Shown here piece by piece: positions 5,078 through 22,187 of a stretch of 64,000 bases of DNA. The translations under genes were made by a program, and so were the position numbers. The stretch's first letter is position 1. Each line of letters begins with the position of its first letter. This stretch comes from Candidatus Dormiibacterota bacterium (GTDB taxonomy: Bacteria; Chloroflexota; Dormibacteria; Aeolococcales; Aeolococcaceae): NCBI GenBank assembly GCA_003142035.1, contig PLOF01000074.1, forward strand, positions 31,402 to 95,401, in the 5' to 3' direction. A model generated the notes under the pieces. That model did no database searches. It was not told the DNA's origin and saw only the letters and a list, made by a program, of their open reading frames with translations.

Positions 5078-5704
5078 ATGACTTCGTCAGAGGCGATCGA
5101 GGGCCGAGGTCCCGGGCTCCGCGAGCGGAAGAAGGCGAAGACCCGCGCCGCCATCCAGCAGGAGGCGATGCGCCTCTTCGTCGAGCGGGGCTACGACGGC
5201 ACGACCGTCGAGGACATCGCCGAGGCCGCCGAGGTCTCACCGAGCACCTTCTTCCGCTACTTCCCGACCAAGGAGGACGTGGTCCTCCGCGATGACTACG
5301 ACGAAGCGCTGATGGAGGTGTTCCAACAGCTGCCAGCTGACCTCACGCCGCTGCAGGCCTGCCGCGAGGCGCTTCGCAGCATCGGTGGCATCACCAGCGG
5401 GCTCTCCCCCGAGGAGCGGGAGCTGGAGAAGGTGCGGATGGCCCTCACCTTCTCGGTCCCGGAGGTCAGAGCCCGCTGGATCAACGAGCTGGTCCGCTCC
5501 TTCCAGGTGCTCGCCGGAGCGGTCGCTGCCCGAGCCGGACGCCCAGCCGATGATGTCCAGGTGCGCGCCTTCGTCGGTGCCGTGCTCGGCGTGATGCTGG
5601 TGGCGATGGAGCCGCTCGTCAACGACCCGACCCGGGAGTGGACCGAGTTCCTACCGGACATCGACGAGGCGCTCGGGTATCTGGAGCAGGGCCTCCCCCT
5701 CTGA
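5078..5704 (+). CDS. TetR/AcrR family transcriptional regulator
   Basis: RAAIQQEAMRLFVERGYDGTTVEDIAEAAEVSPSTFFRYFPTKEDVV. Confidence 0.9.
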   Translation: MTSSEAIEGRGPGLRERKKAKTRAAIQQEAMRLFVERGYDGTTVEDIAEAAEVSPSTFFRYFPTKEDVVLRDDYDEALMEVFQQLPADLTPLQACREALRSIGGITSGLSPEERELEKVRMALTFSVPEVRARWINELVRSFQVLAGAVAARAGRPADDVQVRAFVGAVLGVMLVAMEPLVNDPTREWTEFLPDIDEALGYLEQGLPL

Positions 5705-5819
5705 GCCGGCACCGCCCATTTCCGGCCAGCTCTGCGTCAGCTCCGGTGCTCGGGCGGTCACGCACATCAGTGCGCTCCCTTCCTGCGCTCCTCGCTTCCT
5801 TGATCTGACCGGCCTGGGC

Positions 5820-5836
5820 GGCGCCGAACCGGCGCC
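5820..5836. terminator. GC hairpin between convergent TetR and TrpB-like genes
   Basis: GGCGCCG-AAC-CGGCGCC; no U-tract. Confidence 0.4.
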
Positions 5837-5888
5837 ACCCACCCCGGACGCCCGCTGACCGGACGCCCGGGGATGGAGCGTGCGGGTT

Positions 5889-15814: not shown

Positions 15815-15840
15815 CGAGGCCGATTGTGACGCGCAGCGCC

Positions 15841-15960
15841 AGCAGGGCGCTGAAGAACATCCACCGATGGAATCCAAGGCCGAGCCCCCGCAGGAGGCGA
15901 CGCACGCATCACCGAGGATGGGGGCGGCAGGACCGTCGGGGGTTCTTCAGCGCCCTGCTA
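15841..15960. repeat. Dispersed inverted-repeat element, copy A
   Basis: Perfect 18-bp terminal inverted repeat AGCAGGGCGCTGAAGAAC / GTTCTTCAGCGCCCTGCT; 80-bp right part matches copy B with 4 differences. Confidence 0.85.
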
Positions 15961-16021
15961 GAGGCGCGCGACCACGGCGACGGCGGCGACCACGGGCCGG
16001 ACGGGTAGGATCACTGCCGCA

Positions 16022-21853: not shown

Positions 21854-21877
21854 GTTAAGGACAGCGAAGTCCTTAAC
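21854..21877. repeat. Palindromic hairpin repeat, copy 1
   Basis: GTTAAGGAC-AGCGAA-GTCCTTAAC; same 9-bp arms recur at 63752-63775. Confidence 0.8.
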
Positions 21878-22055
21878 AGGGTGCTGAAGAACCCCCGACG
21901 AGGGATGTCGTTCCCAGACCGGTGAGGCGAAGGAGCCGACGAGGAGGCGAGGGAGCATACCTGCAGGTATTCGACCGAGCCCCCGCAGGAGGCGACGCAC
22001 GCATCGCCGAGGATGGGGGCGGCAGGACCGTCGGGGGTTCTTCCGCACCCTGTTA
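21874..22055. repeat. Dispersed inverted-repeat element, copy B
   Basis: 26-bp terminal inverted repeat TAACAGGGTGCTGAAGAACCCCCGAC with 1 mismatch; core matches copy A; internal 14-bp palindrome ATACCTGCAGGTAT at 21957-21970. Confidence 0.85.
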
Positions 22056-22187
22056 GGGGGTTTGAAGGGTGGGGTGCGTCCCTCGCCTTCCACAAGGTGG
22101 GGATGCCCTCCGGCGGGCACGGAGCCCCGGACGCGGGGGCCGGGGGAGAGCCGACCGATCAGACTGAAGTGACGCCCTCGGTGCGGT

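Follow-up and report, generated by a model that had tools for sequence, protein, structure and literature searches.

ERIC and Correia-type repeats are imperfect intergenic palindromes of about 100-180 bp that can fold when transcribed, and in this they resemble the elements described here. In contrast to them, our elements have regular G.A loops, strand polarity, changed arms, and YTAR targets, and we know of no sequence common to the two groups. REP/BIME sequences are likewise multi-copy extragenic palindromes, some of which plausibly act as RNA, but REPs are 20-40 bp long, carry GTAG/CGTC tags, and are tied to RAYT, whereas the elements here, at ~180 bp, fall outside that size range and have DDE-type terminal repeats with target duplications (PMC3733652). 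BrickBuilt, an IS5-family MITE of Porphyromonas gingivalis, is also short and noncoding with IS5-like terminal repeats, and it contains internal tandem units, as do some of our copies (those in genome G058, for example); however, it carries a 23-nt minisatellite in one species, whereas the unit here is an 82-nt covarying hairpin found phylum-wide between different ends (PMC4596501). IS1272/IS1182 elements have a related transposase domain (a sub-threshold match to NF033551) and hairpin-like ends, but the elements here duplicate their target, and it is the IS5 cut-off that the partner-type protein exceeds (PMC5678879). We found no accounts of such repeats in Dormibacterota in the open literature, and a broader literature search for published structured MITE cores yielded no matching case.

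Here, we analyzed a 64-kb stretch of a Candidatus Dormiibacterota genome (the window) together with genomes of its class and phylum. We conclude, with a probability of roughly 0.8, that its dispersed inverted repeats are IS5-type MITEs whose full-length form carries a selected, strand-polar folded core between changing ends.

Copies A and B are mobile insertions

A perfect 18-bp inverted repeat, with 15841-15858 (AGCAGGGCGCTGAAGAAC) the exact reverse complement of 15942-15959, lies between the coaX and degV genes (Pfam Pan_kinase and DegV), and the window has no other perfect inverted repeat of at least 16 bp whose arms are 20-200 bp apart. A sequence-only reading had described this repeat, its 80-bp match to a second copy, and compensatory changes in its arms, and each of these observations is borne out: 15881-15960 and 21976-22055 are identical at 76/80 positions, the four differences fall at 15911, 15949, 15952, and 15958, and the changes at 15952 and 15958 are compensated on the opposite arm. 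The difference at 15949 is uncompensated and leaves copy B mismatched (left GCTG, right read back GCGG). CACAAT, where that reading placed the -35 of coaX, is present at 15823-15828 on the minus strand. With the edges of copy A set at CAGGG...CCCTG, the left flank is CCAG and the right flank CTAG, which gives the following features.

15843-15957, plus strand: copy A, a 115-bp internally deleted MITE (terminal inverted repeat CAGGGCGCTGAAGAAC at both ends; absent in relatives; weak covariance-model match)
15839-15842, no strand: left target duplication of copy A, CCAG, that is, CTAG with one change (sequence reading; empty sites of equal length)
15958-15961, no strand: right target duplication of copy A, CTAG (sequence reading; empty sites in relatives)
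15878-15911, plus strand: right half of the core hairpin retained in copy A (identity with copy B apart from the differences above)

The second copy is full-length.

21877-22052, plus strand: copy B, a full-length 176-bp MITE (full-length copies in congeners; RNA fold)
21873-21876, no strand: left target duplication of copy B, TTAA (congener loci L325 and L333 with an unoccupied GTCC-TTAA-CGGGGT)
22053-22056, no strand: right target duplication of copy B, TTAG (sequence reading)
21877-21900, plus strand: left terminal inverted repeat of copy B (arms 21871-21900 and 22029-22058, 93% complementary, 28/30)
22029-22052, minus strand: right terminal inverted repeat of copy B (same arms, 21871-21900 and 22029-22058)
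21924-22005, plus strand: core hairpin of copy B (covariance model R1, 101.9 bits; short covarying helices separated by a series of G.A/G.A internal loops)

The left half of this core is missing from copy A, which scores only 24.9 bits (E 0.016) with the core covariance model. Copy A is a dead, decayed, internally deleted member of the family that has kept its terminal stem but not its core, so the evidence for structure rests on copy B and its relatives.

The repeat exceeds chance by far. In a similarity search of the window's own genome (E<=1e-3), copy A as query returns 13 matches and copy B 17, and near-full-length matches to copy B occur in congeners at 97-99% identity (G001, G002, and G005) and 91% (G003). 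Judged by the adjoining degV gene, the closest named relatives are Candidatus Dormi(i)bacterota MAGs. Copy A is missing between coaX and degV in all six congeners and in five named Dormibacterota relatives, where the empty sites have equal length and a single 4-bp copy (CCGG or TCAG). Two congeners show the empty copy B target TTAA, as against TTAA...TTAG in the occupied site here, and a copy on contig C13 is likewise absent in two congeners. By hand alignment, the occupied sites have the length of the empty site plus exactly one extra 4-bp YTAR-like copy, the duplications of A and B each being imperfect with 3/4 positions matching.

These repeats are 81-176 bp long, dispersed, and without a transposase gene; their terminal inverted repeats are perfect over 18 bp in A and match at 28/30 positions in B, and the 4-bp duplications agree with the lengths of the empty sites. 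Because their ends and 4-bp YTAR-like duplications match those of IS5-type transposons, the repeats are MITEs, and copies A and B are insertions of mobile YTAR-type elements. Thus, the suggestion of a MITE-like element stands, on its terminal repeats, its YTAR-type duplications, its empty sites, and its IS5-type-like ends. The sequence-only reading had staked itself against there being just two copies, with no homologs, empty sites, or covariation, and the family departs from that picture.

Other deletion derivatives are 81-130 bp long, and single-end remnants are common. Two hairpin elements (L010 near 1499 and L006 near 1555) contain assembly gaps (NN), and the contig at L024 ends within a terminal repeat; copy numbers in these MAGs are therefore underestimates. 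At C56:76254-80089, two opposed ends separated by 3.8 kb suggested a composite element, but they enclose ordinary genes, including an aconitase-like ORF, and were set aside as two separate remnants.

IS5-type transposons with related ends

IS5 elements target YTAR sites (PMC10359306). Elsewhere in the family and class, other genera have transposases of ~390 aa within elements that end in CTAG|CAGGGTGNTGAA...TTCANCACCCTG|CTAG. Insertion sequences of this type with CTAG|CAGGGTGNTGAA ends are present at L196 (1405-2707), L198, L203, L204, L206, and L218; several look complete and some carry stop codons. Their target duplications are of the YTAR type (CTAG/CTAG at L196, CTAA/CTAA at L198, and CTAG/CTAG at L218). 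The L196 protein scores 249.8 bits with NF033581, the NCBIfam IS5 model (cut-off 140), an assignment that belongs to this related insertion sequence since the MITE itself has no gene. The same protein scores 204.8 bits with the IS1182 model, under its cut-off of 270; we considered IS1182 as the partner family and rejected it, the proteins being related but the element with matching ends passing the IS5 model instead.

A proposed search for an autonomous insertion sequence with the ends of copies A and B was answered in part: related CTAG|CAGGGTGNTGAA ends occur in other genera of the same class, but in genus g1 we found no complete element of this kind and no autonomous element with exact CAGGGTGCTGAAGAACCC ends. 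Nor did we find an autonomous partner for the arms in G058 or G010. MAG assemblies lose repeats, so a missing autonomous partner is weak counter-evidence in each case. Judging from the related ends, IS5-type transposases may well mobilize the MITE ends in trans.

A covarying core hairpin with fixed G.A mismatches

The weaker matches to copy B in the class share with it only an interior of ~80 bp at 75-78% identity, and they lie in palindromic elements with other ends rather than in copies of the same MITE. The aligned core reads G-GA-GCC-GA-C-GA-GC-a-CGC-GA-GG-GA-stem-loop-stem-GA-CC-GA-GCG-c-GC-GCA-G-GA-GGC-GA-C, in which the G.A loop columns are mostly 85-100% invariant while the helix positions vary in pairs. 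Among 66 distinct core sequences, in an alignment that is partly the model-building set and fitted to the model, standard pairs fill 96.2% of the pair cells and 17/20 pairs show compensatory changes. The covariation score of this set is 0.351, compared with 0.119 for shuffled (0/500) and at most 0.081 for slid controls, and that of 17 distinct out-of-sample sequences is 0.436 compared with 0.134 for shuffled ones, with controls that in both sets ignore relatedness among the sequences. The out-of-sample sequences, 14 of them matches from other phylum families and the rest from the window's own genome, were aligned by the model and have 96.4% standard pairs with 14/20 pairs compensated. Compensatory base changes thus support one fold, and the covariance model that the sequence-only reading had called for captures a strongly covarying core, of predicted structure, in the full-length version of the element.

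As RNA, copy B is predicted to form one continuous hairpin (-114.9 kcal/mol, z -10.9), and its complement is predicted to fold to only -93 kcal/mol. Rfam 15 gives a single tRNA at gathering cut-offs in the window and leaves the core unmatched; across seven core-bearing loci it gives one chance match (E 0.57) that lies off the core. The core is an 82-nt covarying hairpin with fixed G.A mismatches and is a fold without an Rfam family.

The core persists while the outer arms change

The core begins ~48-50 nt from the element end, a constant offset, and full-length elements are mostly 175-200 bp (~180). The arms around it are of different types (CAGGGTGCTGAAG, TAGTGTCCGG, TAGTGGAC, AAGCCTGGATCCACC, AGAACGTGTTTTGACC, and more), often flanked by CTAG. 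A third core hairpin in the window has arms unlike those of copy B.

5727-5807, minus strand: third core hairpin in the window (covariance model R1, 46.4 bits, E 3.7e-9; sequence and fold)

The element around it spans roughly 5700-5840 and is flanked by genes of the TetR and PALP families. The window's own genome holds three arm types, namely that of copy B, that of L304, and that of L305/L307 and the 5727 element, and G010 holds two. The core therefore persists as a module while the terminal repeats change, both within one genome and across the phylum. At L304 (~1501-1583), the core has unusually long, near-perfect arms (GGGCTCGTGCCAGAACAAATG); L305/L307, on contig C38, has two cores 114 bp apart and has the arm motif GCCGCYCAGATCAAGGA in common with the 5727 element.

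Using the covariance model, we detected the core in 71/110 genomes of the class and in 52/399 sampled genomes of the phylum, 18 of these 52 belonging to families f21 and f32 outside the class. It was not found in the listed genomes of class family f2 (G032-G049), which suggests loss or patchy transfer; this family shares its order with the window's genome, and other class orders and phylum families have the core. We found no match to the core in phages, plasmids, or viral contigs by DNA similarity or with two exact patterns.

G058 has at least 42 scored core copies and 116 end-like sites, compared with 4 for a reversed control. Some of its cores occur in tandem with a 128-bp period in elements with GCCCGAATCCACCG ends (L256, 466-1059; L257, 2048-2513), followed by a second tandem unit of ~58 bp (GGCCGCATCCGCGCCCAAGATGCGAGTTTGT...).

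Strand polarity of the fold

Across the arms of 38 non-redundant elements, G.A mismatches outnumber C.U mismatches 168:27 and G.U outnumber A.C 113:50. Base composition predicts ratios of 1.43 and 1.06, respectively, and swapping arms between elements yields ratios of 2.4 and 1.3. The polarity persists in the outer 20 nt of the arms. Selection on double-stranded DNA alone cannot yield this polarity, and the excess of G.A and G.U mismatches indicates that selection acts on the folding of one strand, whose polarity is fixed. A single strand of the core is under selection to fold as a hairpin. The designated strand is predicted to be the more stable in 49/52 elements, by a mean of 13 kcal/mol, a result that largely restates the mismatch bias as RNA parameters inherently favor G.A and G.U. 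The G.U pair beside the G.A loop is kept in 52/66 core sequences and in 16/17 of the out-of-sample set, which includes other families.

Relative to neighboring genes, 22 elements are antisense, 9 sense, 14 convergent, and 10 divergent, in counts that include array copies repeatedly and use genes from a simple home-made gene finder. No sense-strand bias is seen in these counts, so they do not support routine read-through of the folding strand.

Discussion

Several other explanations of these repeats were weighed. Nothing in the terminal repeats, target duplications, empty sites, and numerous truncated copies goes beyond an ordinary MITE, and the elements could be no more than that, with an inherited core, no function of the folded strand, and a symmetry left by a palindromic origin. 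This account is already strained, and we regard it as improbable: the core is 75-78% identical across the class between completely different arms, its pairs covary around fixed G.A loops, and its mismatches are strand-polar. An insertion mechanism of the IS1272/IS1182 type, in which a target stem-loop is replaced without target duplication (as IS1272 does; PMC5678879), had in its favor that our initial automatic alignments lacked an obvious duplication and that the flanks are GC-palindromic. We rejected it and give it next to no chance, since empty sites keep their full length, occupied sites add one 4-bp YTAR-like copy with no replacement of a target inverted repeat, and the related insertion-sequence protein lies over the IS5 cut-off but under that of IS1182. 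It is very improbable as well that copy A is a terminator, attenuator, or operator of the coaX/degV promoter. It does lie close to both genes, starting 28 bp upstream of the coaX start codon and ending ~64 bp before the degV start, and its hairpin is very stable (z -6.7), but every relative examined has the same promoter without the element, unrelated genes adjoin the other copies, and copy A is without the core. Any effect of copy A on coaX is probably incidental. The idea of a structured RNA or regulatory element holds on its structural side, through the covarying core predicted to fold in full-length copies.

The nature of the folded strand is a separate matter. Tandem G.A pairs are stable in DNA too, and elements found in all gene orientations need no transcript, so the selected fold could be a hairpin of single-stranded DNA that serves transposition or replication, like those of IS200/IS605 or REP elements. 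We consider this rather unlikely, because the conserved G.U/G.T pair by the G.A loop (52/66; 16/17) better suits RNA, and 4-bp YTAR duplications with long double-stranded terminal repeats indicate a DDE enzyme and not Y1. Most likely, then, the folded molecule is RNA.

We propose that the repeats are IS5-type MITEs that would behave as non-autonomous cut-and-paste transposons, ~176-198 bp at full length, that duplicate a YTAR target (CTAG/TTAA) when they insert and whose ends are moved in trans by IS5-type transposases. The folding RNA might be made by read-through or from a promoter of the element's own, and the module may be retained since the folded RNA serves the element, for instance by binding a host protein. 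Alternatively, palindrome read-through transcripts could be made RNase III-resistant, or the RNA could aid transposition. Somewhat short of an even chance, in our judgment, is the broader proposal of a new phylum-wide structured RNA class, a hairpin of repeated tandem G.A pairs, which as a transposon passenger is taken up by elements with different ends, presumably served by different transposases, and helps the element or its host.

MITEs are usually defined by their ends, with interiors that drift, whereas here the ends vary from genus to genus and family to family of one phylum around a conserved interior. With the covariance model of the core, these elements can be annotated in a soil phylum about which little is known. 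Should the core act as RNA, a structured RNA would be spreading through a switch of transposase partners, and the system would offer a testable model for why bacterial MITEs retain particular interiors.
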